This document shows, piece after piece, positions 14,916-58,916 of a DNA stretch of 64,000 nucleotides (its first letter is position 1; every line of letters begins with the position of its first letter). Origin of the DNA: Sulfuricella denitrificans skB26 (lineage in GTDB: Bacteria; Pseudomonadota; Gammaproteobacteria; Burkholderiales; Sulfuricellaceae); assembly GCF_000297055.2 (NCBI RefSeq), contig NC_022357.1:1116001-1180000 (forward strand), in the 5' to 3' direction. Both the position numbers and the translations under genes were made by a program. Below the pieces are notes generated by a model. It was given only the letters and a program-made list of their open reading frames with translations. It was not told the DNA's origin and made no database searches.

Positions 14916-15009
14916 AGGTCAGAGAATAACCGCTATAGGGACTGAAAATGCTGTTAGAATATTTGAAATGAATAGCTTGCTCGGATAATAATTAAACCCG
15001 GGAGTGAAC

Positions 15010-39203: not shown

Positions 39204-39626
39204 ATGCAACAAGCGCACCATCAACTGACTGTTTTTTCTTCCCAAGGTCGAGGCCTGTATGAGTTCACCCATGAGCTGCGCGACTGGGTGCGTTCGTCGG
39301 ACATTCAGGCGGGCCTGCTGACGGTGTTTGTTCAGCACACTTCCGCCAGTCTGCTCATACAGGAGAATGCAGACCCGACAGTGCAGGCCGATCTGGAGCG
39401 TTTTTTTGCACGGCTGGTGCCGGATGGTGACCCGATTTTTCGGCATCGCCAGGAAGGGAATGATGATATGGCTGCCCATGCACGTGCGGCATTGACCCAG
39501 ACCCATCTCGCCATCCCGATTGTCGGCGGCGCGCCGGTGCTGGGTACCTGGCAGGGCGTTTTTCTCTACGAGCACCGTTACGATCCGCAGCATCGTAAGG
39601 TAATGATCCATTTGATCGGCGAATGA
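39204..39626 (+). CDS. yjbQ: YjbQ-family protein (secondary thiamine-phosphate synthase fold)
   Basis: 140 residues from ATG 39204 (MQQAHHQLTVFSSQG). The UPF0047/YjbQ block VQHTSASLLIQENADPTV and the C-terminal WQGVFLYEHR are conserved. Members have weak thiamine-phosphate synthase activity in vitro; the physiological role is unclear. An upstream in-frame start would overlap the clpB end. Its stop overlaps the start of the next gene (ATGA at 39623-39626). Confidence 0.9.
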   Translation: MQQAHHQLTVFSSQGRGLYEFTHELRDWVRSSDIQAGLLTVFVQHTSASLLIQENADPTVQADLERFFARLVPDGDPIFRHRQEGNDDMAAHARAALTQTHLAIPIVGGAPVLGTWQGVFLYEHRYDPQHRKVMIHLIGE

Positions 39627-40486
39627 ATATGGCAATTCAAAATATCCTGAAACTTGCGTTGGTCTTGGCGGCGTGCCTGACCTGCGTGCCTGCCATTGCG
39701 GCCAAACCAAACGATGCTGCGGCCATACCGCACCTCGACAGCGGGGGAAAGGAAGGCTTCAGGGAGTTTCTTACAGCGGGGAAACACCGTGCCTTCGTGA
39801 TCGCGCCAGGGGGCGCATGGGCCTGGAAAGGGGGTGAGCTGACTGTTGATTCGGCTGTCGATGGGGCGATTCAGGCATGCCAGAATGGAACTGAACAGCC
39901 CTGTGTGCCCTATGTCGTCAACGATAAGATAGTGTTCGATGCCAAGCGCTGGACGACTCTGTGGGGCCCCTACCAGAATCGAGCCAAAGCCGCTAAGGCT
40001 TACACTGGCAAGGAGCGGGGCAGCCGCTTCTTCGACCTCGCCATCAAGAGCCCTACTGGCAAGCCGATGAAGCTCTCCGACCTGCGCGGCAAGGTGGTGG
40101 TGTTGCATTTCTGGGGAACATGGTGCCCACCCTGCCGACGCGAAATGCCGGAATTGCAGGAGCTTTATCAGGAACTGGGCGCTTCCTCCGGTGTGCAATT
40201 GGTCCTGCTGCAAATGCGGGAGGATTTTGCCACCGCACACCAGTGGGCACAGCAACGGCATTTATCCCTGCCTTTGCATGACTCCGGGGTTACGGAAATG
40301 GGCACTGAGTCCCTGGCTCTGGCCAACGGCAAGGCCATACCTGATCGCAGATTGGCGGTTGCATTCCCTACCACCTATGTCCTCGACAAGCATGGTATCG
40401 TGGTATTTTCGCATGTCGGGCCGATTGAGGGCTGGTTGCAATATCTCCCCTTCTTGCAGGACGTAGCGGCAAAATCGGGGAAATAG
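39623..40486 (+). CDS. Periplasmic TlpA-like thioredoxin with N-terminal extra domain
   Basis: 287 residues. Signal peptide MNMAIQNILKLALVLAACLTCVPAIA; residues about 35-125 form a small domain (AFVIAPGGAWAWKGG, then two Cys in AIQACQNGTEQPCVPYVV, probably a disulfide); residues about 140-280 are a TlpA/ResA-like thioredoxin with active site CPPC in HFWGTWCPPCRREMP and cis-Pro in AVAFPTTYVLD. The N-terminal part is not an assigned family to me. It likely handles periplasmic disulfides or haem-ligation thiols. Coupled to yjbQ. Confidence 0.82.
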   Translation: MNMAIQNILKLALVLAACLTCVPAIAAKPNDAAAIPHLDSGGKEGFREFLTAGKHRAFVIAPGGAWAWKGGELTVDSAVDGAIQACQNGTEQPCVPYVVNDKIVFDAKRWTTLWGPYQNRAKAAKAYTGKERGSRFFDLAIKSPTGKPMKLSDLRGKVVVLHFWGTWCPPCRREMPELQELYQELGASSGVQLVLLQMREDFATAHQWAQQRHLSLPLHDSGVTEMGTESLALANGKAIPDRRLAVAFPTTYVLDKHGIVVFSHVGPIEGWLQYLPFLQDVAAKSGK

Positions 40487-45562: not shown

Positions 45563-45569
45563 CGAAAAC

Positions 45570-48500
45570 ATGACCCTGCGCATCCTGCATGTCGAAGACA
45601 GCCCGGACGATGCCGACCTGACCCGGCGGCACCTGTCGCGCCATGCCCCCGACATCGAACTGACCCAGGCGGCCACACTGGCCGAAGCACTGGTCTGTCT
45701 GCAGGCGCCCGCCAGTTTCGATGTGGCCCTGGTAGATCTGAAACTGCCGGATGGATCCGGGTTTGAACTGATGAACTGGATCCGGCAACACTCCCTGCCC
45801 ATGGCGGTGGTCATGCTCACCGGTTCGGGCGACCAGCAAGCGGTGGTCGCTGCACTCCAGGCCGGCGCCGATGACTACCTGAGCAAGGGCGCTACATCCC
45901 TGGAGCGCCTGCCCGCCATCCTGCACGATGCCAGCAAACGTTTCCAGGCAGCACGTATCCGTCGGTCCCGATTTTTACGCGTACTGTATGCTGAGCGCAC
46001 TGCTAGCGATATCGACCTGACCCGGCGTCATCTGGCCCGTTTCGCTCCCCACATCCGACTGACTGTAGTGGGGGATGCCACCGAGGTCTTGCAGCTTTTG
46101 CCAGTGGATGGAACAACGCCAGCGGACTTCGATGTGGTGTTGCTGGACTATCGCCTGCCCGGACTGGATGCCCTGGAGGTGGTCAAGGTGCTGCGCACCG
46201 AGCGCGGCTTGGACATCCCCATCGTCATCGTCTCCGGGCAGGGCAGTGAGGAGGTGGCAGCGAAGGCCATCCATCTCGGGGTAGACGATTACATCGCCAA
46301 ACACCCCGGCTATCTGCACGAACTGCCTGCCACCCTGGAAAAGGTGCTGCGCCAAGTGGAACTGTTGCGGGAGCGCAGCGCCCTGCGGGAGGTCTCGGAA
46401 CGCCTGGGGCGGGCCTTGACCACCAGCCCGGTGATTCTTTATACCCTGCGCCTGGATCCGGAAGGTGCCACGCCTGTCTGGGTCAGCAGTAATATCGAGC
46501 GCCTGCTGGGATACACAGAGGCGCAGGCGCTACAACCCGGGTGGTGGTCGAGCCGCCTGCATCCCGATGACCGCGACGCGGCACTGGCCCGAATGGGAGA
46601 ATTGCCGGGCGCAGGGCAGATTGCGCATGAGTACCGGTTCTTCGACGGTCATGGCCGGATCCGCTGGATACACGACGAGTTGCGTCTGTCGCAAGTCGGC
46701 GAGGGGATCGGCGCCTGGCTCGACGTTACCGAGGCCAAGATGGCCGACCAATTACGGGAAACACGGGTTGCCATGCTGGATGGCCTGGTGGCCGGTCGTC
46801 CCCTGTCCATGATCCTGGAAGAAATCGTTACCCGCCTGGAAAGCATACATCCGGAATTGATGGTCTCTATCCTGGTGCGAGATACGCGCAGCGGCCAACT
46901 ATATACCGCTGCCGCCCCCAGTCTGCCTGCTTTCTTCAACGCCGCCGTGGATGGTCTGAAGCCCGGAGTTGGGCAGGGTTCCTGCGGGACATCGGCGGCC
47001 ACCGGCGAGATGGTCATCGTCGAGGATATTCGCACCCATCCTTATTGGGCGCCATACACTGATCTGGCCGAACGTGCCGAGCTGCGTGCCTGCTGGTCTA
47101 TCCCTTTCAAGGACGGCGCCGGTCAGGTGCTGGGCACCTTCGGCATCTATTATCGGCAACCGCGTTCACCCGACCCGGTGGAGCTGGACCTGATCAGCGA
47201 GTTTGCCCGCATCGCCGGGCTGGCCGTGGAGCGGAGTCGTGCCGATGCTGCCCTGCGCCTGGCAGCGGCGGTACTGGAGAGTGTCGGCGAGGGTGTGATG
47301 GTCACCGATCTGCAATCTCTCATCGTCTCCGTCAACAGTGCCTTCACGACCATCACCGGTTACACCGAGGCCGAGGTGCTGGGCCGCAATCCGGGACTGC
47401 TGCGGTCAGGGCGCGAGGATCAGGCGTTTTACCGGGCCATGTGGAGCAGCATCAAAGACACCGGCGCCTGGCAGGGTGAACTCTGGAACCGGCGCAAGAA
47501 CGGCGAACTTTTTGCGCAGTTGCTCATCATCAGCACCGTGTACGACAGCGACGGCCTGCCCGGCAACTACGTGGGCGTGATGACCGATCTCAGTCAGCTC
47601 AAGGATTCGGAGGCCAGATTCGAGCACCTCGTCCACTATGACCCACTGACAGCTTTGCCCAACCGTCAGCTGTTGCAATCCCGTCTGCAGCACGCCCTGG
47701 CCACTGCCGAGTTGCACAAGCAGCGCCTTGCGGTGCTGTATATTGACCTGGACCGCTTCAAGAACATTAACGACAGTCTGGGCCACCCGGTGGGTGACGA
47801 ACTGCTGGAAGCCTTGGCCCGGCGCATGGGGGAGCAGCTGCGGGGCGAGGGCATTCTGGGTCGCCTGGGTGGCGACGAGTTTCTGCTGATCATGGAGGAT
47901 CTGCAACGCCCGGAGGAGGCAGCGGGTGTCGCCAAGGATCTGATCGGCTTGCTGGATCAACCCTTCCACCTGCCTAGCGGACACGAAGTCTTTATCGGAG
48001 CCAGCATCGGTATCAGCCTGTTTCCGGAAGATGGCGCTTCCTGCACCAAACTCGTCCAGCACGCCGATGTGGCCGTGTATCAGGCCAAGGAATCGGGCCG
48101 CAACACCTACGCCTTCTACACGCCGTCCCTGACCGTGATAGCCAACGAAAAGCTGGATCTGGAAGCGCGCCTGCGGCATGCACTGACCCAGGGTGAATTC
48201 TTGCTGCATTACCAGCCCCAACTGGACATCCAAAGCGGTGGCTTGATCGGCTGTGAGGCCCTGGTGCGCTGGAATAACCCGCAACAGGGCTTGATCTCGC
48301 CGGCCCGCTTTATCCCACTGGCGGAGGAGACCGGCCTCATCGTGCCTTTGGGCGAATGGGTGTTGCGCCAGGCCTGCTCTCAGGCGCGGGCCTGGCTCGA
48401 TGCCGGTATGCCGAACCTGTCGATGGCCGTTAATCTTTCCGCGCGCCAGTTGCAGCAGCCCGATATCGTCGCTCGCGTCGCCGCCATCCTGGAAGAAACC

Positions 48501-48929
48501 GGACTGCCCGCCGAGACGCTCAAGCTGGAACTCACCGAAAGCATGATCATGGGCCATGGCGAAGAGGTGGTCGTCCTGTTGCAGGACTTGAAAGCGCTGG
48601 GCATACGTCTGTCCATAGATGATTTCGGCACCGGTTATTCCTCCCTGGCCTATCTGAAGCGTTTTCCCATCGATGAGATCAAGATCGATCAGGGCTTTGT
48701 GCACGACATCCCGAATGACAGCAATGACAATCAAATCGCTATCGCCATCATCGGCATGGCGCACGGCCTGAGCTTGAAGGTTATGGCGGAAGGCGTGGAA
48801 ACCGAAGCCCAGCGAGACTTCCTGGCGCAACATGGTTGCGATGCGTTCCAGGGCTATCTGTTCAGTCGCCCGCTGCCTGCGGAGGAATTTACTCGCTTCT
48901 TGAGCGGGACTGGTCCACTGCAATCGTGA
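45570..48929 (+). CDS. Response-regulator c-di-GMP enzyme: REC-REC-PAS-GAF-PAS-GGDEF-EAL
   Basis: 1119 residues from ATG 45570 (MTLRILHVEDSPDDADL); upstream in-frame starts overlap the previous gene. REC1 (about 1-120, Asp in ALVDLKLPDG), REC2 (about 130-250, Asp in VLLDYRLPG but a weaker acidic pair), PAS (about 285-390), GAF (about 395-545, GQGSCGTSAATGEMV), PAS (about 555-670), GGDEF with RLGGDEF (~766) and EAL with CEALVRW (~894), NLSARQL, DDFGTGYSS, EGVET. Both enzymatic sites look active. Third gene of the kinase operon, so phosphorelay control of c-di-GMP is inferred. Confidence 0.92.
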   Translation: MTLRILHVEDSPDDADLTRRHLSRHAPDIELTQAATLAEALVCLQAPASFDVALVDLKLPDGSGFELMNWIRQHSLPMAVVMLTGSGDQQAVVAALQAGADDYLSKGATSLERLPAILHDASKRFQAARIRRSRFLRVLYAERTASDIDLTRRHLARFAPHIRLTVVGDATEVLQLLPVDGTTPADFDVVLLDYRLPGLDALEVVKVLRTERGLDIPIVIVSGQGSEEVAAKAIHLGVDDYIAKHPGYLHELPATLEKVLRQVELLRERSALREVSERLGRALTTSPVILYTLRLDPEGATPVWVSSNIERLLGYTEAQALQPGWWSSRLHPDDRDAALARMGELPGAGQIAHEYRFFDGHGRIRWIHDELRLSQVGEGIGAWLDVTEAKMADQLRETRVAMLDGLVAGRPLSMILEEIVTRLESIHPELMVSILVRDTRSGQLYTAAAPSLPAFFNAAVDGLKPGVGQGSCGTSAATGEMVIVEDIRTHPYWAPYTDLAERAELRACWSIPFKDGAGQVLGTFGIYYRQPRSPDPVELDLISEFARIAGLAVERSRADAALRLAAAVLESVGEGVMVTDLQSLIVSVNSAFTTITGYTEAEVLGRNPGLLRSGREDQAFYRAMWSSIKDTGAWQGELWNRRKNGELFAQLLIISTVYDSDGLPGNYVGVMTDLSQLKDSEARFEHLVHYDPLTALPNRQLLQSRLQHALATAELHKQRLAVLYIDLDRFKNINDSLGHPVGDELLEALARRMGEQLRGEGILGRLGGDEFLLIMEDLQRPEEAAGVAKDLIGLLDQPFHLPSGHEVFIGASIGISLFPEDGASCTKLVQHADVAVYQAKESGRNTYAFYTPSLTVIANEKLDLEARLRHALTQGEFLLHYQPQLDIQSGGLIGCEALVRWNNPQQGLISPARFIPLAEETGLIVPLGEWVLRQACSQARAWLDAGMPNLSMAVNLSARQLQQPDIVARVAAILEETGLPAETLKLELTESMIMGHGEEVVVLLQDLKALGIRLSIDDFGTGYSSLAYLKRFPIDEIKIDQGFVHDIPNDSNDNQIAIAIIGMAHGLSLKVMAEGVETEAQRDFLAQHGCDAFQGYLFSRPLPAEEFTRFLSGTGPLQS

Positions 48930-49061
48930 AGCTCGCGTGACGGTGAGCGTTCAGACAAGTCAGTTATGGAACTCATACGGCGCCCCTTCCCGCTATAGGC
49001 GTGGACCGAGAGGGAACCGAGCCTGCCCCGTTATTCATCGGAACTGATTGCATTCACGCAA

Positions 49062-49097
49062 CAAAAAAATGGCCACTAAAATTAGTGGCCATTTTTT
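49062..49097. terminator. Bidirectional rho-independent terminator
   Basis: Perfect 11-bp stem ATGGCCACTAA (49069-49079)/TTAGTGGCCAT (49082-49092), flanked by an A run on the left and a T run on the right. It ends the cytochrome cluster on the minus strand and can also stop the kinase operon from the plus side. Confidence 0.92.
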
Positions 49098-49112
49098 GTT
49101 TGCGAGGGGAGG

Positions 49113-49860
49113 CTAGTTAATCCACCTCTTCCCATCCGGTAATCATCGCCTTGATGTGCGAAGTCGGGGTATGACCGGCCGTTGTCAGGTAGACGTGGGC
49201 GATCAGGAACAGCAGCATCATGAACGCGCCGGCGGTGTGGAAGAAAGCCACCCACTCCAGGGAGATATACTTATCCAATCCCCATGCCGTCCAGTCACTG
49301 AAGAACAGATAGAGCCATCCGGTGAGCCACAGTAAGGGTCCGATGAACAGCAACACCCCAAGATAGGCCAGGCGCTGCAGCGGGTTGTGTTTCTTCAGCG
49401 TGGTCGCCTTGAACGGATGCGGCGCATTGGTGAAGATGCCGACCGAATAGAACTTGATCATGGCCACCACCTTGTCCGTGGTCGGGATGTACTGTTTCCA
49501 CTCGCCGGTAGTGAAGTGCCAGAAGATGGCAAACACCCACAGGCCGATCAGCGACCAGGCGGCGATGGTGTGCAGACTCGTCGCCTTGGCGAAGCCGAGG
49601 AAATGATAGGAGCCATGCACCTCGAAGCCGGTAATCAGCATGAAGATAATGAGCGAGGCCTGACCCCAGTGCCAGAAGCGCTCGAAGCGTTTGAAAACGT
49701 AGATTCTTTCGACGGTCATGATCTTATCCTTTCCTGTGGGCATAGATGCGGCCAGCGCCGTGGATCAGCACGCCGATCAGGGTCAGCAGGGCAAGCGCCC
49801 AGCCAGCCATGTCGAGCAGATGATTGTTGTCGCCTCGGCCCGGCATGTAGATGCCTTTGA
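49113..49860 (-). repeat. 748-bp direct repeat, copy 1 (cytochrome b plus octaheme C-terminus)
   Basis: Matches 54587-55334 at an offset of 5474 bp with one difference noticed (A at 49174, G at 54648). It covers the whole cytochrome b gene, the intergenic gap and the last ~44 codons of the octaheme cytochrome; similarity drops sharply outside. Same orientation in both copies. Confidence 0.95.
49117..49719 (-). CDS. Membrane cytochrome b (Ni/Fe-hydrogenase/thiosulfate-reductase type), copy 1
   Basis: 200 residues from the ATG at 49719 (MTVERIYVFKRFERFWHWGQ) with AAGGAT upstream; a further ATG adds eight residues that overlap the previous stop. Four hydrophobic helices, with haem-ligand candidates His17, the His in SLHTIAAW, FWHFTTG and FFHTAGAF/LIAHVYL. 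This b-type quinone-linked subunit (cytochrome b561/Ni_hydr_CYTB family) should exchange electrons between the quinone pool and the octaheme cytochrome encoded four bases upstream. The protein is identical to copy 2. Confidence 0.9.
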   Translation of the reverse strand: MTVERIYVFKRFERFWHWGQASLIIFMLITGFEVHGSYHFLGFAKATSLHTIAAWSLIGLWVFAIFWHFTTGEWKQYIPTTDKVVAMIKFYSVGIFTNAPHPFKATTLKKHNPLQRLAYLGVLLFIGPLLWLTGWLYLFFSDWTAWGLDKYISLEWVAFFHTAGAFMMLLFLIAHVYLTTAGHTPTSHIKAMITGWEEVD

Positions 49861-51358
49861 TTTCTTTCAGGCGGCCTCCAGTCTTGGCGTCGTGGCACTG
49901 CACGCAGGACAGGGCCTTCTCTTTTGGCGCGACCATGTGGGTGATGGGCCAGAACATTTCGGTCTTGATGAAATCGACCTTGCCTGAGAATGGGGCGCCC
50001 ATGTTCTGCATGCCACTGGTAATGGATACTTCCCAGTCAAAATTTTTCCAGTAGGCGATTTTGTCGTCGCCGGCGGTATCCGGCATAACCAGGGTATGGT
50101 TGACCGGGTCGAAGGGCTGCTTGCCGCGCATTACCTTCATTGGCCAGATCATCGACTTGCCATCGGTTGGGCTGCCGCCGATACGGTTGATCGGGGTTGC
50201 GACATCGCTCTTGCTGACCTTGTCGCTGAGCAGGGTGTATGTCACCTTGCCGTTGAACCAGTAGTATTCCGGGACGACATTTTCAGCAAGTACGAAATCC
50301 CCTTTCTTGGAATCATAGGTGGCATGGCCTTTCTTGTCTTTCTTGGTCATGGGTTTTCCATCTGGTCCCATCTTGCCGGCAGTTGACCAGTCCCAGGACA
50401 TTTTGGTGGGCACGCCACCGCGCGCGAATTCCGGAATATGACAGGTCTGGCAGGCGATCTTGTTGGTGTGTTCATTCAACTTTTTGCCATGATTGTCGAA
50501 TTTGGTCAGATTGACCGGATGCGGCTGATCGCCATGGCAGGCTTGGCAGGTAGCCGGGTTGCTGCTGTCCGCCTTGCCGCGCATGTGGGCGCCGCCCTTG
50601 TCCTGCGCGGTGGGCGTGTAACGACTGCCCGGCACTTCGTGGCTGGAAGTCTTGTGGCAGGTACCGCAGGTGAAATCGGCGCCGGAAGCATCCATGTGGA
50701 CGTCGAGTTCCTTTTCAGGCGCAGCCAGCGAGCTATCCATATCGCCGTGTTTCACGCCATCGCCGCCACCGCCCTTGAAGTGGCAGGCGCCACAGGTGTC
50801 ACGGCTGGTCTTTCCAACTTTCTGGGCGACCTTGGTCAGGTCCACCGGCTTGAGGATCTTGCCGGAGCCGGGAGGAAATTCCATTTCCTTGTATACCGGG
50901 TGCCCGGCAAGGCCGGGTGGTTTGTTGTAATTGCCGGTGCGGTCGTGGCAGACCAGGCAGTCGACATTAATTTCCGAGCTGAAGTCGAAGTTCTTGTCCT
51001 TCCAGCCATAACCGGCATGGCAGGAAGTGCAGGTGGCATAATTCTGCGAAATGGAGATACAGAAATTGTTAATGACATTCTTTTTGCCCAGGCGCTGATT
51101 ATTCTCCGGGTTGAGAAATTCCCAGGTCCAGTGTTTGGTTTTGTGCACCTGCTTGGCGGCTTCGGTATGACAGGAGAGGCAGGCCTTGGTGACATCCGGG
51201 CCGGTTGCGAACGGCTGCTGCAGTGCCTTGAACTTGCTGTGGTCGGCAGTGGATGTATTGGCGGCGCCAGCCATGCTGCTCATGGTCAGGGCGCACAGTG
51301 TGGCCAGCCAGCCGGCAAATGCGATGACGGTGGACCATTGGGGGCGCTGGGTTTTCAT
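49724..51358 (-). CDS. Octaheme c-type cytochrome, tetrathionate-reductase (OTR) family, copy 1
   Basis: 544 residues. Signal peptide at the N-terminus (ends about SSMAGAA), eight CxxCH haem-binding motifs (CLSCH, CTSCH, CLVCH, CGACH, CGTCH, CQACH, CQTCH, CVQCH) and a C-terminal membrane helix (MAGWALALLTLIGVLIHG). The pattern and spacing match OTR-family octaheme cytochromes, which in Shewanella reduce tetrathionate, nitrite or hydroxylamine in vitro. The direction and substrate in this organism are unknown. It faces the periplasm, anchored beside cytochrome b. The head differs clearly from copy 2; the tail is identical. Confidence 0.9.
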   Translation of the reverse strand: MKTQRPQWSTVIAFAGWLATLCALTMSSMAGAANTSTADHSKFKALQQPFATGPDVTKACLSCHTEAAKQVHKTKHWTWEFLNPENNQRLGKKNVINNFCISISQNYATCTSCHAGYGWKDKNFDFSSEINVDCLVCHDRTGNYNKPPGLAGHPVYKEMEFPPGSGKILKPVDLTKVAQKVGKTSRDTCGACHFKGGGGDGVKHGDMDSSLAAPEKELDVHMDASGADFTCGTCHKTSSHEVPGSRYTPTAQDKGGAHMRGKADSSNPATCQACHGDQPHPVNLTKFDNHGKKLNEHTNKIACQTCHIPEFARGGVPTKMSWDWSTAGKMGPDGKPMTKKDKKGHATYDSKKGDFVLAENVVPEYYWFNGKVTYTLLSDKVSKSDVATPINRIGGSPTDGKSMIWPMKVMRGKQPFDPVNHTLVMPDTAGDDKIAYWKNFDWEVSITSGMQNMGAPFSGKVDFIKTEMFWPITHMVAPKEKALSCVQCHDAKTGGRLKEIKGIYMPGRGDNNHLLDMAGWALALLTLIGVLIHGAGRIYAHRKG

Positions 51359-51416
51359 GGCGTATCCTTCCGAAGCATGATGTCAGTGAAAGATCTGATT
51401 GTTGTCGCAACAGGAT

Positions 51417-51440
51417 CAAGACGGGTGGTCACCCGCCTTG
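51417..51440 (-). other. Intercistronic hairpin between rhodanese and octaheme genes
   Basis: CAAG-A-CGGGT-GGTC-ACCCG-C-CTTG forms a 9-bp stem with one mismatch in the 93-bp gap. No T run follows on the minus strand, so it is more likely an mRNA processing or stability element than a terminator. Confidence 0.45.
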
Positions 51441-51451
51441 AAGCCGTGGAT

Positions 51452-52606
51452 TTATTTGCCGCGTTCCTTGATGCTGAACGTGCCATCCGCGTTGAATTTC
51501 ATTTCTGCATCAATGAAATATACCTGCAGTTCGCTACGCAGCAGTTTTGCCGTGTCATAGGCTTCTCCTGAACGAGCTCCCGTGCCACACAGAAAGACGA
51601 TGGGTTTGTCCTTGGGCAGGATTGAGATCTTTTTCTCCAGATCGCCGATGCTAATGTTGATTGCCCCCTTGACGGTGCCTGCCTTGAATTCCTTGGCATC
51701 GCGCACATCCACCAGCAGCAGGGAATCCGGATTTTCCTTCATGATGCGTTCGAAGGACGCCACCGAGATGCTGCCTTTTTCCTTACCGGCCTCAATGCTG
51801 GCCGCAGCCTTGGCTGTCTCGCCAGCGCCGCTGGCAACGGTCGGAACTACTGCTTCACCATACAGTTTGGCCCACTCCGGATAGCCTTCAACATAAGTTT
51901 TGACGTCGGTATAACCCAGCTTGCGTGCCTTTTCCGCAGATTTGACGCTAAGTACACATTCCAGGCCGCCGCAGTAGTAAATCAGAGACGCGGCCTTGTC
52001 AGCGGGCAGTTTGTCCACATGCTTGTCAAATTCGCTGTCTGAAATATTTACTGCGCCTGGAATGGCACCCTTGTCGAACGTACGCTTGGGCCGGGCATCT
52101 ATCAGCATGAAATTGGCTTTTTCGTCTTGCAGCTTCTTGATGTAGGCCGCGGAGACGGCTTGTCCCGTGCCCTTGGCCGCCCAGTCGGGAGAACCGTCGG
52201 CATAAACACGGATATTGGTGTAGCCGAGCTTTTCCGCCTTGAAGGCAGAGTTGTGGCTCAGCATGCACTCCACGCCACCACAGTAGAAAATCAGCAGCGT
52301 GCTCTTGTCCTGAGGCAGGCTGCCGGCCATCTGGTCGAATTTGCTATCCGGGATGCTTAACGCGCCGGGGATGTGGCCGGGGTCGTATTGACGTGCTGCA
52401 GGGCGGGAGTCAATCAGCATAACGTCCTTCTTGGGGGGGATGTCGACGTTCTGTTTGACAAATTCGATATCCACCAGTTTGTTGTACCAGCCTTCCTTCG
52501 CCTTGACCTGTTCTGCATGAGCCGGTGTCAGCCAAGATACGGTCGGCAGGGCGATGAACAGCGACAAAACCAGGGTAAGTCCCAGATTATGCAGTTTCAA
52601 GTTCAT
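51452..52606 (-). CDS. Periplasmic protein with three rhodanese domains
   Basis: 384 residues. Signal peptide (cleavage about AHA-EQ, residues 31-32) and three tandem rhodanese domains with candidate catalytic cysteines Cys109 (CGGVEC), Cys212 (CGGLEC) and Cys340 (CGTGARSG). The first two loops share an unusual CGGxEC pattern with a second cysteine four residues on; the third is a normal-looking loop. Rhodaneses carry sulfane sulfur as a persulfide, so this could pass sulfur between carriers in the periplasm. AAGGAG precedes the start. It lies between the YeeE/YedE transporter and the octaheme gene, same strand. Confidence 0.9.
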   Translation of the reverse strand: MNLKLHNLGLTLVLSLFIALPTVSWLTPAHAEQVKAKEGWYNKLVDIEFVKQNVDIPPKKDVMLIDSRPAARQYDPGHIPGALSIPDSKFDQMAGSLPQDKSTLLIFYCGGVECMLSHNSAFKAEKLGYTNIRVYADGSPDWAAKGTGQAVSAAYIKKLQDEKANFMLIDARPKRTFDKGAIPGAVNISDSEFDKHVDKLPADKAASLIYYCGGLECVLSVKSAEKARKLGYTDVKTYVEGYPEWAKLYGEAVVPTVASGAGETAKAAASIEAGKEKGSISVASFERIMKENPDSLLLVDVRDAKEFKAGTVKGAINISIGDLEKKISILPKDKPIVFLCGTGARSGEAYDTAKLLRSELQVYFIDAEMKFNADGTFSIKERGK

Positions 52607-52631
52607 TTGTGGACTCCTTGAAATTAAATTT

Positions 52632-53876
52632 TCAAATGACGGTAAATTTTTCAGTCGATTCGTTGTAGCGAACCAGGAGGTACCACACCAGCAGGATAGA
52701 ACCGCTAATCAGGTAGGTCCAGCCCCAGCCGCCCAGCATATCCGGGAGGTAGGCCTGGAAGCCGACAGCCGTCTTCTCGAAGGACTCCACATTGCTTTCA
52801 TCAATGGACGTGATCTTGAATTTCTTGAGCAGTGCGCTAGCGATGGAACCTGACCAGGAAAAGAAGAAAATCGTCACCCACAACTTGGCATGCCCTTCAC
52901 CCATGCGCCACAGAGAACCGGAAGCGCAGCCGCCGGCGAAGATCATGCCGATGCCGAAGATCAGCCCGCCCAACAGAGAGCCGATCCAGAAAGTCGCCGG
53001 AATGGCGACATAGGGATCGATGATTTTTTTCTGGAACAGCAGCGAGGATACGACCATGCCGATGGTCAGAGCCAGGATGACGGCCTTGGTCATGTCGCCT
53101 TCGGCGGTCATGAAAGGCTCTCGGAAGGAACGTGCAAAGCACAGGCGTGAACGATGCATGATGAAGCCGATAGCGAAACCCGCCAGGACGATCACAGCGC
53201 GGGCAGCCAGCTGCGTGTTGCTGGAGCCATACCACTGGGTGGCCCAGAACAGCACGCCCACGACCACGGCTAGCCCAAGCAAGGGATAGATGCGTAACAC
53301 GCCTTCCGGAAGCCTGATGGGGGGCGGAGCCACCATACCCCACTCGATATTTTCGAGCGTCCACATCAACAGTTTGAGGCCGATGGCTGCACCTAATAGC
53401 AAACCTGCCCACATGGCCCAGCCCGCCGGGGAGGCATGCAGAATCGGGTTGAAGAAGCCGCCGGTGGTGCAGCCACCGGCCAGCGCAGCGCCGATACCTA
53501 GCAGGCAGCCGCCTAGTGCGGCCCAGATGTACTCAAGTTTCGGTGGCCGACGCGGAAGAAACTGGCGTGACAGCAGCGCTGCACAGAATGCACCCAGCAC
53601 CAGCATGATGTTCATCAGCGACATGCGGTGCATGAGAAAGCTGTCGAGTTCCTGAGGTACGCCGAGAAGCGGCCCCAGACCGATCAGGTTGTTGAACCAG
53701 TCGCCCCAGAACTTGACTCCGCCGAACACCCCCCAGAACAGGCCGTTGATCATCAGGCCGATAATCACCAGCACCAGCAAGATACCGCCCAGATAGGGCG
53801 ACCAATCTTCGACAAAAATTGTTTCGTAGTCCGCCTTGAAGCCGGCGAGCCAAGCAGAACCATTTTCAGTACTCAT
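52632..53876 (-). CDS. YeeE/YedE-family sulfur transporter (TsuA-like)
   Basis: 414 residues, about ten or more membrane segments (Sulf_transp family). Three conserved cysteines sit where TsuA/YeeE has them: Cys136 in AGGCTTG, Cys246 in RLCFARSF and Cys317 in AGGCASGSLWRMGEG. TsuA-type proteins move thiosulfate across the inner membrane through a cysteine relay; whether this one imports thiosulfate or another sulfur species is not known. GAGGTG upstream of the ATG. It is followed 25 bp later by the triple-rhodanese gene, a natural sulfur-handing partner. Confidence 0.88.
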   Translation of the reverse strand: MSTENGSAWLAGFKADYETIFVEDWSPYLGGILLVLVIIGLMINGLFWGVFGGVKFWGDWFNNLIGLGPLLGVPQELDSFLMHRMSLMNIMLVLGAFCAALLSRQFLPRRPPKLEYIWAALGGCLLGIGAALAGGCTTGGFFNPILHASPAGWAMWAGLLLGAAIGLKLLMWTLENIEWGMVAPPPIRLPEGVLRIYPLLGLAVVVGVLFWATQWYGSSNTQLAARAVIVLAGFAIGFIMHRSRLCFARSFREPFMTAEGDMTKAVILALTIGMVVSSLLFQKKIIDPYVAIPATFWIGSLLGGLIFGIGMIFAGGCASGSLWRMGEGHAKLWVTIFFFSWSGSIASALLKKFKITSIDESNVESFEKTAVGFQAYLPDMLGGWGWTYLISGSILLVWYLLVRYNESTEKFTVI

Positions 53877-53901
53877 GGTAGCACCTCAGGCAAGTAACTC
53901 A

Positions 53902-53928
53902 CGGGAGCGCCGGGCGCTCCCGTTTTTT
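53902..53928. other. Stable hairpin with T run on plus strand
   Basis: CGGGAGCGC (53902-53910)/GCGCTCCCG (53914-53922) with a CGG loop and T6 on the plus side. On the plus strand it looks like a terminator, but no plus-strand gene precedes it. For the minus-strand operon it lacks a following T run, so it may limit or stabilise the message between the cytochrome c and the transporter. Confidence 0.5.
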
Positions 53929-53951
53929 ACAACACGATCAGGCTGTTTTGA

Positions 53952-54344
53952 TTAACTGCAACTGGCCGGGCTGTCGCCATCCTTCGCGCCTTTGATCACA
54001 AAGGCCTTGATGTCTTCCATGAGTTGCTGATCGGGTACATCGGCGAATTTCTCGGCAGCCTTGTTGGTGGCCTTGATGCTGGCGCGGTATTGCTGGCTGA
54101 TGTACTGCTTGACGCTGTCCTTGCCTTTGGCGTGTTTGTCTGCCTGAAGGTAGGCAGTCCATTCAGCCTTGGTCCTGGAAGTGGGTGCAATGGCTTTTTC
54201 TGTTTTTGCAACGTGGCAGCTGGTGCATACCTGACGGTAGTAAATGCGGCCGACTTTCCAGTCGCCATCATAGGCCTGTGCAGTGGTATAAGCCGTGGTG
54301 CCCAGTATGGCCAGGACAATTGAGATCGAAAGCTTGGTTTTCAT
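53952..54344 (-). CDS. Small periplasmic monoheme cytochrome c
   Basis: 130 residues from the ATG at 54344 (MKTKLSISIVLAILGTTAYT), supported by GAGGAG upstream and a signal peptide ending about TAQA; a longer open frame upstream has no family support. One CxxCH (CTSCH) near residue 40; the rest is helical, with a Cys two from the C-terminus (PASCS). Likely soluble electron carrier for the octaheme/rhodanese cluster. It has its own leader of 246 bp after the cytochrome b copy 2 terminator, so probably a separate promoter. Confidence 0.85.
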   Translation of the reverse strand: MKTKLSISIVLAILGTTAYTTAQAYDGDWKVGRIYYRQVCTSCHVAKTEKAIAPTSRTKAEWTAYLQADKHAKGKDSVKQYISQQYRASIKATNKAAEKFADVPDQQLMEDIKAFVIKGAKDGDSPASCS

Positions 54345-54534
54345 GTTAAGACTCTCCTCATAATTATTATTGAATATTAAAATGTAATCAATTGCCATCT
54401 CTTCATAAAATAATAGACTAACAGGATAACGATGTCCAATAAAAAAACAGGTATACGTTTTCAAATCCCGCTGCCTGAATAAAATGATGAACAGAGCTAA
54501 TCTCCAGTGAGAAATTATAGGAGACATATAAGCA

Positions 54535-54568
54535 ATAAAAAAGCCGGACAGTTTTCACTGTCCGGCTT
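54535..54568 (-). terminator. Rho-independent terminator after cytochrome b copy 2
   Basis: AAGCCGGACAG (54541-54551)/CTGTCCGGCTT (54558-54568), an 11-bp stem, followed on the minus strand by TTTTATTGC. It ends the DUF302-octaheme-cytochrome b transcript and insulates the downstream cytochrome c gene. Confidence 0.88.
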
Positions 54569-54586
54569 CTGGATGGAGGGAGGAGA

Positions 54587-55334
54587 CTAGTTAATCCACC
54601 TCTTCCCATCCGGTAATCATCGCCTTGATGTGCGAAGTCGGGGTATGGCCGGCCGTTGTCAGGTAGACGTGGGCGATCAGGAACAGCAGCATCATGAACG
54701 CGCCGGCGGTGTGGAAGAAAGCCACCCACTCCAGGGAGATATACTTATCCAATCCCCATGCCGTCCAGTCACTGAAGAACAGATAGAGCCATCCGGTGAG
54801 CCACAGTAAGGGTCCGATGAACAGCAACACCCCAAGATAGGCCAGGCGCTGCAGCGGGTTGTGTTTCTTCAGCGTGGTCGCCTTGAACGGATGCGGCGCA
54901 TTGGTGAAGATGCCGACCGAATAGAACTTGATCATGGCCACCACCTTGTCCGTGGTCGGGATGTACTGTTTCCACTCGCCGGTAGTGAAGTGCCAGAAGA
55001 TGGCAAACACCCACAGGCCGATCAGCGACCAGGCGGCGATGGTGTGCAGACTCGTCGCCTTGGCGAAGCCGAGGAAATGATAGGAGCCATGCACCTCGAA
55101 GCCGGTAATCAGCATGAAGATAATGAGCGAGGCCTGACCCCAGTGCCAGAAGCGCTCGAAGCGTTTGAAAACGTAGATTCTTTCGACGGTCATGATCTTA
55201 TCCTTTCCTGTGGGCATAGATGCGGCCAGCGCCGTGGATCAGCACGCCGATCAGGGTCAGCAGGGCAAGCGCCCAGCCAGCCATGTCGAGCAGATGATTG
55301 TTGTCGCCTCGGCCCGGCATGTAGATGCCTTTGA
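54587..55334 (-). repeat. 748-bp direct repeat, copy 2
   Basis: Near-identical to 49113-49860 (one difference seen at 54648). Covers cytochrome b copy 2 and the last ~44 codons of octaheme copy 2. Because both copies point the same way, recombination between them would delete a 5474-bp block. Confidence 0.95.
54591..55193 (-). CDS. Membrane cytochrome b (Ni/Fe-hydrogenase/thiosulfate-reductase type), copy 2
   Basis: 200 residues, the same amino-acid sequence as the protein at 49117-49719. Four helices and the same candidate haem histidines. It follows octaheme copy 2 by four bases and should be its quinone-linked partner. The DNA differs from copy 1 at one base noticed, silent in the protein. 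A terminator follows, unlike the context of copy 1, so the two copies are in separate transcripts. Confidence 0.9.
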   Translation of the reverse strand: MTVERIYVFKRFERFWHWGQASLIIFMLITGFEVHGSYHFLGFAKATSLHTIAAWSLIGLWVFAIFWHFTTGEWKQYIPTTDKVVAMIKFYSVGIFTNAPHPFKATTLKKHNPLQRLAYLGVLLFIGPLLWLTGWLYLFFSDWTAWGLDKYISLEWVAFFHTAGAFMMLLFLIAHVYLTTAGHTPTSHIKAMITGWEEVD

Positions 55335-56919
55335 CGTTCTGCAGACGGCCTCCCTTGCTATGGCACTGGGCGCAGGTGAGTGCGTCAGCCTTGGGTGCGA
55401 CCATGTGGGTGATCGGCCAGCTCATTTCGGTTTTGACGAAGCCGTATTTGCCGCTGTAAGGCTTATTTGTTGCCTTCATGCCAGCTGTCAAAGATTTATC
55501 CCAGTCGAAGTTCGACCAGTACGACGTATCATCATTACCGAAGGTGTGAGGTGCAACCAGTGTTTTATTAACTGTGTCAAAAGGTTGCTGTCCACGGAAT
55601 ACCTTGACCGGCCAGATCATGGATTTGCCGTCGGTAGGGCTGCCCTCGAAGCTATTGATCTTCACCACATGGGTGGGATCCAGCTTGGTGTCGCTCAGGG
55701 TGTAATTCACTTTGCCGTTGAACCAGATGTACTCCGGGATAACGTGGGATTCCCAAACAAAGTTGCCCTTTTTGCTGTCGTAGGCACTGTGCCCGGCGCT
55801 ATCCTTGATTGTAAAGGGCTTGCCTTCTGGCGTGAGCTTGCCGGCCGTCGACCAGTCCCAGCTCATCTTGGTGGCTTGGCCGCGAGCGTACTCCGGAATA
55901 TGGCAGGTCTGGCAAGCAATCTTGTCGGTATGCTCGTTCAGCTTGGTCATTTTTGCCGGATGCGGTTTGTTGCCGTGGCAGGACTGGCAACTGGCGGGGT
56001 TGCTGTTGTCAACCTTGCCGCGCATATGCGGAGGAATCGCGTCCTTGCTGTTGGCTCCTGCTACAGTTGGAGCGTAGCGACTGCCGGGAACCTGGTGGGC
56101 GGATGTCATGTGGCAAGTGCCGCAACTGAAGTTCAGCCCTTTTTTCTCCATGTGAATGTCGAGATATTTGGGCGGGTCTTTCAGAGTGCTGTCGATGTCG
56201 CCGTGCTTCACTGCATCACCGCCACCGCCATAGAAGTGGCATGCACCGCAGTTCGCACGACTGGTTTTTCCGACACTCTGAGCAACCTTGGCGAGATCAG
56301 GGGCTTTGACGATCTTGCCGGAATGTGGCGGGAATTCCATATCCTTGTACGCAGGATGTCCCGTCAACCCTGGAACTTTCCGGTATGTGCCGGTGGATTC
56401 ATGACAGACGACGCAGTCGACGTTTTCTTCAGCAGTGAAGTCGAACTTGTCGTCCTCCCAGCCGTAGCCGACGTGGCAGGCGTTGCAGAATTTCTGATTC
56501 GATTCCACGGCGGTGCAGAAGTTGTTGATGACGTTTCTTTTGCCCAGCTTTTGCTTGGTCTCGGGATTGATGAATTCAAAAGTCCAGTGCTTAGTCTTCT
56601 GAATCTGCTTGGCTGCCTCAGTGTGGCAGGTCAGGCAGGCCTTGGTGATTTCTGGCCCTGATTTGAAATCCTTCTGCAACTCCTTGAATTTGCTGTGGTC
56701 AGCGGTTGAGCTGCTTTCCTTTTTGACTATGGCTGCTGGATCTGCTGCCGCCGCTGGTGCAGACATTGCTGCATGCGCGGCCGCAGACATTGGTGCGGCC
56801 GGAGCTGCATTAGCCGCCGTCTGCGCGGGGGTAGGAGCTGGCGTGGCGAAAGCGGTCAGCGCTGCCACCGTGGCCCCTGCCACCAGTGTGGACAGGGCAA
56901 TTTTTAATTTAGACAACAT
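55198..56919 (-). CDS. Octaheme c-type cytochrome, tetrathionate-reductase (OTR) family, copy 2
   Basis: 573 residues. Signal peptide, then an Ala/Pro-rich spacer (about residues 27-70) absent from copy 1, eight CxxCH motifs (CLTCH, CNACH, CVVCH, CGACH, CGTCH, CQSCH, CQTCH, CAQCH), and a C-terminal membrane helix identical to copy 1. The head is clearly homologous to copy 1 but diverged, including insertions (GANSKDAIPPH) and a different haem-8 surrounding. AGGAGGT precedes the start. It likely takes the same electron route through cytochrome b but may act on a different substrate. Confidence 0.9.
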   Translation of the reverse strand: MLSKLKIALSTLVAGATVAALTAFATPAPTPAQTAANAAPAAPMSAAAHAAMSAPAAAADPAAIVKKESSSTADHSKFKELQKDFKSGPEITKACLTCHTEAAKQIQKTKHWTFEFINPETKQKLGKRNVINNFCTAVESNQKFCNACHVGYGWEDDKFDFTAEENVDCVVCHESTGTYRKVPGLTGHPAYKDMEFPPHSGKIVKAPDLAKVAQSVGKTSRANCGACHFYGGGGDAVKHGDIDSTLKDPPKYLDIHMEKKGLNFSCGTCHMTSAHQVPGSRYAPTVAGANSKDAIPPHMRGKVDNSNPASCQSCHGNKPHPAKMTKLNEHTDKIACQTCHIPEYARGQATKMSWDWSTAGKLTPEGKPFTIKDSAGHSAYDSKKGNFVWESHVIPEYIWFNGKVNYTLSDTKLDPTHVVKINSFEGSPTDGKSMIWPVKVFRGQQPFDTVNKTLVAPHTFGNDDTSYWSNFDWDKSLTAGMKATNKPYSGKYGFVKTEMSWPITHMVAPKADALTCAQCHSKGGRLQNVKGIYMPGRGDNNHLLDMAGWALALLTLIGVLIHGAGRIYAHRKG

Positions 56920-56983
56920 AGTACCTCCTGATACGATCTTTTTTGCGAATAATCCGCTTTAGGCATTTCTGGTACCTGGCTGC

Positions 56984-57529
56984 TTAGCAGCCGCCACCAC
57001 CACCTGTAGCTGCGCCACCGGCTGCGCCAGGCGTGCCTTTGATCATCGGGGGTGCAGGCTGGCTCGCATCGAAGATGATGAACTTGGCCTGATCATCTGC
57101 GACGTGGCCCATGACTTCGCCCACCAAGGGGCCGAACATCTTGCCCATCAGTCTGGCATTCATCCCTGCAATGTAGGTTTTGCCGTCATTTTTCTTGTAA
57201 ATGGAAATCTTGCAGGGCATCAGGATGGAGAGGAAACGGACGGTGTCGTCCCGGAGAATGGGGCCGGAGTACCTCGTGCTACAGGCTTCGACCATCAGTA
57301 CCGGCAAGGCATTGCCGCCATCATTTTCAACGGCTTTAGCCGGATTGCGCAGACCAGCCAGAGCCCAGCCGTTGCCGACATTCTGGATATTCTGCTGGAT
57401 ACGTGCGACGGTTTCTTCTACGCCGAAAGGGCTGGGCACTTCCCAGAACATCAGGCTGCTCATGAAGTTATAAGCCATGAACCCCACAAAGACTAGTGCA
57501 GCAATAAAACCACTGATAATTTTTAACAT
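56984..57529 (-). CDS. DUF302-domain membrane-anchored protein with Gly-rich Cys tail
   Basis: 181 residues. N-terminal signal anchor (MLKIISGFIAALVFVGFMAY), then a DUF302 domain (about 35-150, SPFGVEETVARIQQNIQ; MVEACSTRYSGPIL; FLSILMPCKISIY), and a C-terminal tail rich in Gly/Ala that ends GGGGGC. Conserved cysteines in EACS and MPCK fit a thiol or metal role known for some DUF302 proteins, but function is not established. GGAGAG upstream. First gene of the minus-strand cluster, 64 bp before octaheme copy 2, so probably co-transcribed. Confidence 0.82.
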   Translation of the reverse strand: MLKIISGFIAALVFVGFMAYNFMSSLMFWEVPSPFGVEETVARIQQNIQNVGNGWALAGLRNPAKAVENDGGNALPVLMVEACSTRYSGPILRDDTVRFLSILMPCKISIYKKNDGKTYIAGMNARLMGKMFGPLVGEVMGHVADDQAKFIIFDASQPAPPMIKGTPGAAGGAATGGGGGC

Positions 57530-57731
57530 TTTGGTTGCTCTCCATTTTTAGACTGATATTAAAACTTTGCCTTAAATAATATTATACATACCAACCCCAA
57601 GACCACATTTCTTAATTTTGATTATATTCTTATATTCGAATAATACAAGACATAAATATCTTGAAGTCCTTATTGATTTAATAGGGTGTAAATCCAGTAG
57701 AATTGGGCTTTCTGCTTGAATTGTCGCTGAC

Positions 57732-58916
57732 ATGATATCTCCATTTTCCATTTCGGGCCTGCCAAAAATTATTTTTGGTGAGGGTCGCCTGAGCGATGTG
57801 CCCGAGTTGCTCCAGTCACTGGGGAAACGTGTCCTGATCGTTACCGGAGGCAGGTCATTTCGTGCCTCGCTGTACTGGCAGGGATTGGTTGACGCCCTCA
57901 AGGGGAGGGGGCTGTCCTGGGAAGACATGGTGGTAGCGCAGGAACCCTCGCCTGGTTTGGTGGACCAGGCGGTCAGGGTATATCGCCATGCCGGCATCGA
58001 AATCGTGCTGGGCATCGGCGGTGGCAGCGTGCTGGATGCTGCCAAGGCGATTGCCGGGTTGCTGCCCCATGGCAATTCGGTGATGGACCACCTCGAAGGG
58101 GTGGGGCCGGAGTTACCTTATCGAGGGCCGTCGCTGCCCTTTATTGCGGTGCCGACTACCGCAGGTACCGGCTCTGAGGCCACCAAAAATGCCGTCCTCA
58201 GCATGCACGGGCCGGACGGTTTCAAGAAGTCCTTTCGCCACGACCTGCTGGTGGCGAAATATGCGGTAGTGGACCCGGCGCTGCTTGCCACCTGTCCGCC
58301 TGACCTGATCGCTGCCAACGGCATGGATGCGCTGACCCAGTTGCTGGAATCCACTGTTTCCACCCGGGCCAATCCCTTAGTTGATGCGCTGGCGCTGAGT
58401 GGTCTCGGTTACGTTCGCGAAGGTCTTCTGGATTGGTATGAGGACGGCGAAAAGGCGGCTGAGGGCAGGGCGGGAATGGCTTATGCCGCGTTGCTTTCGG
58501 GTATTACCCTGGCGCAGGTGGGGCTAGGGTCGGTGCACGGACTGGCGGCACCGTTGGGGGCACTCTTTCCAGTGCCGCATGGCGTGGCTTGCGGCGCGAC
58601 GGTGGCAGAGGCGACGGCGATCAATATTCGGGTGCTGGGGGAGCGCGAACCGCGCAGTCCTGCCTTGGAGAAATACGCCAAAATCGGTCGAATGTTCAGT
58701 CGCAAGCACCTGGACGATGACGCTGCGCGCTTGTTCCTGGTGGATATGCTCAGGGAATGGACAAGGAAAATGAAGGTGCAGGGCCTGGGTGCTTATGGCA
58801 TCCGTGAAGCCGATCTGGACCTGATCGTGGCGAACAGTCGTGGCAGCAGCATGAAGACCAACCCCATCGTGTTGACCGATGGGGAGGTCAGAGAAATTTT
58901 GCTGCGCTGTCTTTAA
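57732..58916 (+). CDS. Iron-containing (type III) alcohol dehydrogenase
   Basis: 394 residues of the Fe-ADH family. NAD-binding loop [35 protein letters not shown], and metal-site histidines in [22 protein letters not shown]. Substrate (alcohol, butanol, lactaldehyde or other) cannot be decided. Divergent from the cytochrome cluster, with a 200-bp AT-rich gap; stop overlaps the convergent fabI by four bases. Confidence 0.88.

Follow-up and report, generated by a model that had tools for sequence, protein, structure and literature searches.

On the minus strand of a 64-kb window from Sulfuricella denitrificans skB26 (contig NC_022357.1, positions 1,116,001 to 1,180,000; the whole stretch of DNA analyzed here), running from position 57529 to 49117, lie a gene for a DUF302 protein, a gene for an octaheme cytochrome c of the octaheme tetrathionate reductase (OTR) family (OTR1), a gene for a cytochrome b561-type membrane subunit (cytb), a terminator, and then genes for a small c-type cytochrome (cytc), a YeeE/YedE-family transporter (YeeE), a triple rhodanese, a second octaheme cytochrome (OTR2) and a second cytb. 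All coordinates are positions in the window; the host genome comprises 3.22 Mb on two contigs, and a plasmid has been reported for the strain (PMC6397845). An earlier note on this DNA had named ten features here, and all ten were found in place and on the same strand (Table 1), the open reading frames (ORFs) being checked against Pfam and NCBIfam; what that note called octaheme 2 and cytochrome b 2 are our OTR1 and cytb1. The locus is two modules side by side, module A (DUF302-OTR1-cytb) and module B (OTR2-cytb-cytc-YeeE-rhodanese).

Table 1. Features of the two-module locus and its surroundings, from high to low window positions.
Feature	Position	Strand	Basis
DUF302 protein, 181 aa, N-terminal membrane helix, Gly-rich tail to Cys181 (module A)	56984..57529	-	PF03625
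OTR1 octaheme cytochrome c, 573 aa, C-terminal membrane anchor (module A, DUF302-linked clade)	55198..56919	-	TIGR04315, tree
Cytochrome b561-type membrane subunit, copy 1	54591..55193	-	PF01292, 80.1 bits
Homogenized tract, copy 1 (OTR anchor and cytb)	54587..55334		747/748 nt identical to 49113-49860
Intrinsic terminator between modules A and B	54539..54570	-	14-bp stem, T-rich tail
Small c-type cytochrome, 130 aa, one CXXCH, His71, Cys129 in low-confidence tail	53952..54344	-	Homolog alignment, predicted structure
10-bp hairpin between cytc and YeeE	53901..53923		Terminator-like for + strand only
YeeE/YedE-family transporter, 414 aa, FdhT/YedE half order, conserved Cys136, Cys246 and Cys317	52632..53876	-	PF04143, 151.6 bits
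Secreted triple rhodanese, 384 aa, loops CGGVEC, CGGLEC and CGTGAR	51452..52606	-	PF00581, three stretches
OTR2 octaheme cytochrome c, 544 aa, C-terminal membrane anchor (module B, YeeE-linked)	49724..51358	-	TIGR04315, tree
Cytochrome b561-type membrane subunit, copy 2	49117..49719	-	PF01292; protein identical to copy 1
Homogenized tract, copy 2 (OTR anchor and cytb)	49113..49860		Offset 5474 from copy 1
Terminator-like hairpin with T run after cytb2	49062..49097 (about)	-	By-eye reading; absent from terminator-scan list
TlpA/ResA-like thioredoxin, WCPPC motif	39623..40486	+	44% identical to L190:8814-9626; Redoxin/AhpC-TSA

Both octaheme proteins score far over the curated cut-off of 375 bits for TIGR04315 (OTR1 635 and OTR2 627 bits, covering model positions 1-440 of 440), and each has eight CXXCH motifs. 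By hydropathy, DUF302, the rhodanese and both OTRs have an N-terminal hydrophobic segment; the OTRs have, in addition, a membrane helix at the C-terminal end. The NCBIfam model closest to cytb copy 1 is that for thiosulfate reductase cytochrome b, at 122.8 bits and so under the cut-off of 204; the longest cytb ORFs begin within the OTR genes, at 55217 (copy 1) and 49743 (copy 2), and the ATGs at 55193 and 49719 would yield a cytb of 200 aa. The DUF302 protein clears its family cut-off (PF03625, 32.8 vs. 23 bits), and the small cytc falls slightly short of its own (PF00034, 20.2 vs. 21.3). Among the genes of 49117-57529 there is no molybdopterin catalytic subunit of the Psr/Phs type, and a search of positions 48000-58000 against Rfam at the gathering threshold returned no structured RNA. 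The terminator scan listed 16 terminator-like sites vs. 13.1 expected in shuffled sequence, a total that is uninformative by itself.

The two modules recur in other genomes, together and apart. In a set of 100 genomes, that of the window included, OTR matches at E ≤ 1e-100 were found in 22 and triple rhodanese matches at E ≤ 1e-60 in seven, and these seven are exactly the genomes with two OTRs. Eleven of the 22 have module A and no other OTR module (cytb being cut off in G002; genomes and loci are given by our own G and L labels where they must be told apart), and module B appears elsewhere as an OTR-cytb-cytc-YeeE unit, mostly with the rhodanese. Four of the 22 have OTR-cytb without DUF302: G044, in which cytc and YeeE make up a module B without rhodanese and without any module A, G040, with YeeE farther off, and G017 and G083, with neither cytc nor YeeE. 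In G086 modules A and B are on different contigs and the rhodanese on a third. The earlier note had treated the run as one single system, and that part of it does not survive, since module A stands alone in half of the OTR genomes and module B, lacking only the rhodanese, in G044. A single operon spanning the whole run is likewise rejected because the modules are separate in other genomes (G063, G086, G044) and a terminator lies between them here (54539-54570).

Module B was followed further through its transporter, by a scan of one genome per species that yielded 79 YeeE loci (the best 80 of 84 matches; L082/L083 and L089/L091 each share a genome) and that, resting on two short patterns, sees close relatives only. 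An OTR lay within 6 kb of YeeE in 64 of these loci, and cytb, cytc and rhodanese in 62, 72 and 66, respectively; for the 39 loci whose flanks reach 6 kb or more in both directions the corresponding counts were 37, 33, 35 and 31, with all four genes in 26. These flank counts, like the active-site, rhodanese-loop and DUF302 and cytc tail counts given below, include second records of some genomes. The hosts that could be placed are Beta- or Gammaproteobacteria, including Sulfuritalea, Thiobacillus, Sulfurisoma and Sulfuricellaceae as well as Gallionella, Propionivibrio and Hydrogenophilus, the closest named match being that of Sulfuricella sp. T08 (97% identity). The OTR may lie upstream of the other genes and codirectional, upstream and divergent, or downstream, and with an order this variable the linkage is more than inherited gene order. 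The grouping suggested in the earlier note is therefore not a chance one: YeeE, OTR, cytb, cytc and rhodanese do recur together in other Betaproteobacteria, and rhodanese-OTR joined to soxYZ recurs in two further genomes. In a class-wide sample of 369 genomes a similar YeeE is rare (six at E ≤ 1e-90, counting the window genome), and an OTR over the family cut-off was found in 29; a separate cytb is beside the OTR in 29 of the 33 class-wide OTR neighborhoods and fused to it in one (G447). We also observed a protein of 431-436 aa, read at its two ends and with at least one CXXCH motif, about 1.3-1.4 kb before the OTR of an OTR-cytb pair in the class-sample loci L188, L193 and L196.

The main new result concerns the DUF302 protein of module A. 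All 25 OTR-linked homologs finish in a tail rich in Gly and Ala with Cys at the very end (19/19 across the relatives, L133 and the window, and 6/6 in the class sample), vs. none of 50 DUF302 controls, i.e., 0/30 top-scoring class hits, one of which has a Cys among its last four residues, and 0/20 divergent hits hand-picked from the match list. In the predicted structure a membrane helix and the DUF302 fold are followed by a disordered tail (residues 170-181; predicted local distance difference test, pLDDT, about 32). By fold search the domain resembles ordinary DUF302 structures such as 1q9u, and the fold is thus uninformative about sulfur; PF03625 is the only family found in the protein, with no match to the SoxY domain PF13501. 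A flexible C-terminal arm with Gly and Cys, as in SoxY, is present in all 25, and these tails predict that the protein is a candidate sulfur carrier with a SoxY-like arm. Module B has conserved cysteines of its own. The small cytc has a penultimate Cys in 77 of 77 rows (five second records among them), in a tail of low confidence in the predicted structure, together with an invariant His beyond that of the CXXCH motif and no conserved Met. The rhodanese has a CxGxxC loop in each of its first two domains and, in domain 3, the canonical six-residue Cys loop of a rhodanese active site; this arrangement holds for most of the homolog patterns listed (the 25 commonest of 76 rows), with a few rows deviating.

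OTR1 could be aligned with the Shewanella OTR structure 1SP3 over residues 81-527 (E=3.5e-116). The residues equivalent to 1SP3 K153 and C64, which we take to be the unusual heme ligand and the active-site Cys of the Shewanella enzyme, are kept as Lys and Cys in both OTR1 and OTR2. The Lys is present in all 93 covering rows of 95 homologous rows, and the Cys in all rows except those of Thiobacillus type, with Ser in L137 and L145, L138 being flagged too. In a tree of the OTR ectodomains, from which six loci (second records of genomes already included) and an 81-aa OTR fragment were excluded, the DUF302-linked OTRs, 19 in number, group together with a support of 0.987, and 62 YeeE-linked OTRs make up a second, weakly supported clade (0.52), the YeeE-linked OTRs of L071, L137, L138, L139 and L145 falling outside it. 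Judged from this tree, OTR1 and OTR2 are old paralogs.

The membrane parts of the two modules have a different history. The 748-nt tracts that comprise the OTR anchor and the entire cytb differ at one base, whereas the ectodomains are only 65% identical in DNA. A recent tandem duplication of the modules is therefore rejected, OTR1 and OTR2 belonging to different lineages and their close likeness being confined to anchor and cytb; the "duplicated" octaheme/cytochrome b modules of the earlier note are duplicates in anchor and cytb but not in the octaheme ectodomains. Ectodomain, anchor and cytb DNA identities in the two-module genomes are 65/100/99.8% in the window genome, 73/96/99.2% in G063, 70/86/98.7% in G019 (300 nt up to a contig end), 68/74/82% in G021 and 67/60/72% in G086; in G010 (66% and, over 87 nt, 100%) and G020 (70% and 95%) the cytb was outside the coverage. 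Anchor and/or cytb are thus homogenized in five of the seven, and not in the other two. The values for the draft genomes G010, G019 and G020 are weaker, because their contigs end within the anchor-cytb repeat. The clearest example is G063, which belongs to another family and is a single contig with modules about 300 kb apart: here a stretch of 105/105 nt in the anchor is identical, the spacer after the anchor has diverged and a cytb stretch is 98.7% identical over 632 nt. In the cytb tree (73 of 89 rows, excluding six loci and matches shorter than 150 aa) the G063 pair are sisters (support 0.89), and the two cytb proteins of the window genome are identical.

Near-identity of anchor and cytb is best explained by gene conversion, which is the simplest account, and gene conversion in turn suggests that OTR1 and OTR2 share one kind of membrane partner. 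That the near-identical copies stem from misassembly or from a segmental duplication of very recent date deserves very little credence: the contig ends that interrupt the repeat in the three drafts are what such a reading would expect, but it does not account for two alike patches around a diverged spacer, 300 kb apart in a single-contig genome, nor for paired OTR ectodomains that differ by 27-35% in DNA. In evolutionary terms the effect would be that two old enzymes go on holding their membrane electron-transfer part in common, their catalytic domains remaining distinct.

The transporter of module B is not a TsuA orthologue. The TsuA model NF052577 gave 105 bits vs. a cut-off of 400, and the halves are swapped relative to the solved TsuA structure 6LEO (query 230-342 corresponding to chain residues 6-116 and query 86-162 to 242-319), so that the "TsuA-like" label of the earlier note fails as a claim of membership. 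The YedE/FdhT model NF033796 is collinear over 20-335, yet its 103 bits are also well below the cut-off of 350. No TusA or DsrE-like gene, as would define a YTD cluster, was found beside YeeE within 49117-57529. Some Rhodocyclales-type loci have two half-size Sulf_transp proteins between cytc and YeeE (protein clusters found in 11 and 9 loci; e.g., L072:9385-9984 and L076:199-735), one of which also matches DUF6691.

Genes of the Sox system join the module in some genomes. A triple rhodanese-OTR-soxY-soxZ run is present in G457 and G447, which in G447 contains a natural OTR-cytb fusion of 736 aa (L198:5790-8000, minus strand); in G457 a cytb was looked for beside the soxYZ-linked OTR and none was found. 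soxYZ is also near the module in G044, L104 and L111. The window genome itself encodes a single SoxY, whose C-terminus reads GGCGG and whose gene neighbors are soxZ- and soxA-like (labels assigned by eye); a search of this genome for SoxC gave no match. In G086, fccAB-like genes (for a flavocytochrome c sulfide dehydrogenase) are located roughly 2 kb from the rhodanese gene. A SoxY variant by module B at L060:10672-11157 has a terminal Cys (...TAGGC) and so resembles the DUF302 tails.

Module A has a partial link to a thioredoxin. In 12 of 22 loci, out of 25 type-A loci in all, a TlpA-like thioredoxin is encoded near the module, the Sulfuricella locus being one of the 12. Its thioredoxin (Table 1) is the best match in the genome to the module-A thioredoxin of other genomes, the next best being far weaker (E 1.9e-9), and is separated from cytb2 by 8.6 kb. 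The genes in this interval (41574-48929, plus strand) encode a CHASE-PAS histidine kinase, a response regulator and a GGDEF/EAL protein and are convergent with module B. Elsewhere in the window are a second, weaker TlpA-like ORF (35143-35637, minus strand) and two adjoining LapD/MoxY-GGDEF-EAL proteins with C-terminal chemoreceptor zinc-binding (CZB) domains (12069-18201, plus strand).

Several components have counterparts in described systems. OTRs have been characterized chiefly by their in vitro activities on tetrathionate, nitrite and hydroxylamine (PMC6449678, PMC4484225), and the activity on tetrathionate that the earlier note invoked is reported for a relative, the Beggiatoaceae OTR BOGUAY_2386, at up to 93 μmol/min/mg; its gene is near one for a thiosulfate reductase cytochrome b (PMC6449678). 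The OTRs here share with that enzyme and the Shewanella OTR the family match (TIGR04315 and phmmer), the eight CXXCH motifs and the K153 and C64 equivalents, but the Shewanella OTR is described as soluble and as interacting with the small tetraheme cytochrome (PMC6449678, PMC4484225), whereas those here have an anchor and their own cytb and are tied to a Cys-tailed DUF302, a rhodanese and YeeE. In the Sox system SoxY binds sulfur on a swinging-arm Cys (PMC5336275), and soxYZ is part of the OTR operon in some genomes; in contrast, the DUF302 protein has no PF13501 domain and the enzyme is an octaheme cytochrome with cytb rather than SoxAX, SoxB or SoxCD. The transporter shares the Sulf_transp family and conserved GGC motifs with the YeeE/TsuA importer, SoxT and the YTD cluster (PMC11582611, PMC13047784), but its halves are reversed and its score is far below that required of TsuA, and the TusA and DsrE genes of the YTD cluster of sulfur disproportionators are absent from this run. 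A secreted three-domain rhodanese also adjoins a sulfur reductase in the psr operon of Desulfurivibrio dismutans (PMC12142623), although there it is the polysulfide reductase Psr and here an octaheme OTR with cytb. In a lucinid symbiont soxYZ adjoins the OTR (otr-soxY-S3-soxZ), but the accessible text describes no module with cytc, YeeE, triple rhodanese or Cys-tailed DUF302 (PMC11237559), and Dethiobacter has clusters of SirA/Otr-like octahemes with rhodaneses, one octaheme being upregulated with thiosulfate, but these are only about 20-23% identical to Otr/SirA, and a cytb/YeeE/DUF302 set is likewise absent from the accessible text (PMC10376724).

Thus OTR near a thiosulfate reductase cytochrome b, OTR with soxYZ, the triple rhodanese of psr, octaheme-rhodanese clusters and DUF302 genes in sox operons were known already. 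A literature search, with most subscription papers outside its reach, turned up, among the papers listed, no description of the module, of a Cys-tailed DUF302 or of the homogenized membrane part, and no paper pairing octaheme tetrathionate reductase with DUF302. What is new is, above all, the terminal-Cys tail of DUF302, and with it the penultimate Cys of cytc and the soxYZ and thioredoxin links.

From the gene content and its recurrence, the paralogy of the OTRs, the homogenized membrane part, the conserved cysteines and the partial linkage to SoxYZ and thioredoxin we infer quinone coupling, a carrier role, a substrate, a direction and import, in a reading to which we assign a probability of roughly 45%: a quinone-coupled periplasmic sulfur-redox system of two old OTR-cytb modules that use thiol carriers and cleave S-S bonds reductively. 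The OTR would be held by its C-terminal helix beside cytochrome b561, which would exchange electrons with the quinone pool, and would act on sulfur chains carried by dedicated thiol proteins. The carrier for OTR1 would be DUF302, by its SoxY-like Gly-rich arm ending in Cys, and that for OTR2 the triple rhodanese, plus SoxYZ in some species; sulfur would be protein-bound for part of the path, because Cys-tailed proteins, SoxYZ, rhodanese and thioredoxin all accompany the modules. Quinol would drive reductive S-S cleavage of tetrathionate or of carrier-bound thiosulfonates, giving thiosulfate or free carrier, after which the rhodanese could accept the sulfane sulfur and YeeE supply the cytoplasmic Dsr pathway with imported sulfur. 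The potential of the tetrathionate/thiosulfate couple lies above that of ubiquinone, and the reductive direction would therefore be downhill. Reductive cleavage is, by analogy, the most likely direction for the OTRs because the characterized ones considered here are reductases and because of the value of that couple, +198 mV (PMC9562282). The periplasmic sulfur-redox pathway proposed in the earlier note accordingly keeps its conserved gene set and likely quinone partner, and loses the duplicated origin, the TsuA-like transporter and the single system.

A number of observations weigh against this reading. Direction is unreadable from sequence, and identical parts might run oxidatively; sulfur-oxidizer genus names are common among the hosts; and OTRs also reduce nitrite and hydroxylamine (PMC4484225). 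The linkages are incomplete, as 8 of the 39 full-flank YeeE loci have no rhodanese and two have no OTR, thioredoxin is missing near 10 of the 22 A modules (contig ends cut three of these), and a scan of 147 loci, with second records counted, found soxYZ in just five different genomes. Among the class-sample OTR-cytb pairs (fusion counted), 23 of 30 have neither DUF302 nor rhodanese nearby, and when same-strand ORFs of 80 aa or longer from the class-wide OTR loci were clustered, no other carrier-like gene recurred in three loci or more, hence there is no universal carrier rule for OTR-cytb. Finally, Thiobacillus-type OTRs have Ser at C64 although the module is retained.

The same parts could instead work oxidatively, with OTR-cytb as a quinone-reducing sulfane or thiosulfate dehydrogenase that draws electrons from sulfur on the carrier arms and takes the place of SoxAX or the missing SoxCD. 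This fits the hosts, whose names indicate sulfur oxidizers, at least equally well, and it would make sense of a window genome with SoxY but no match to SoxC, of soxYZ in OTR operons, of the fccAB-like genes near the rhodanese in G086, and of the DUF302 genes reported within sox operons that lack soxCD in Acidithiobacillia (PMC5037610, PMC5248467). Nevertheless, the characterized OTRs considered here are described as reductases (PMC6449678, PMC4484225), and Sulfuricella strains have been assigned a Sox-Dsr-Soe pathway (PMC6397845), making a replacement of SoxCD unnecessary; we consider the oxidative direction doubtful, if clearly worth keeping in mind. We think it somewhat less probable again that OTR-cytb is an added periplasmic sulfur-redox route beside SoxAX/SoxCD and TsdA/DoxDA in which DUF302, with its ...GGGGGC end, would be a new swinging-arm carrier and the OTR a quinone-reducing oxidase of carrier-bound sulfane sulfur where SoxCD is lacking.

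OTR-cytb might also be an enzyme of nitrogen oxides that uses quinol to reduce or detoxify nitrite or hydroxylamine, the neighboring sulfur genes then serving a separate function. Shewanella OTR reduces both compounds (PMC4484225), the Beggiatoaceae OTR reduces nitrite, although less than tetrathionate (PMC6449678), and the many class-sample pairs without DUF302 or rhodanese would be expected; but such a reading has difficulty with OTR2 sitting beside YeeE and rhodanese, with SoxYZ accompanying some OTRs, and with OTR1 being paired with a Cys-tailed protein and frequently a thioredoxin, and we regard it as unlikely. Less likely still is a role in redox sensing or repair of thiol damage, in which the module would free periplasmic thiols (e.g., those of SoxY) of stuck polysulfide or S-sulfonate rather than carry the main energy flux: the thioredoxin and SoxYZ linkages and the tail cysteines are in keeping with it, but an eight-heme enzyme with a membrane partner, in two copies, is in our judgement costly for repair.

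If the quinone-coupled, carrier-based system is the correct reading, the module could explain how some sulfur-oxidizing bacteria handle sulfur chains outside the cytoplasm. The partnership of OTR with cytb, here in the company of proteins with exposed cysteines, gives an enzyme known chiefly from in vitro assays a testable role in these bacteria, and the linkage predicts a new sulfur-carrier protein, DUF302.

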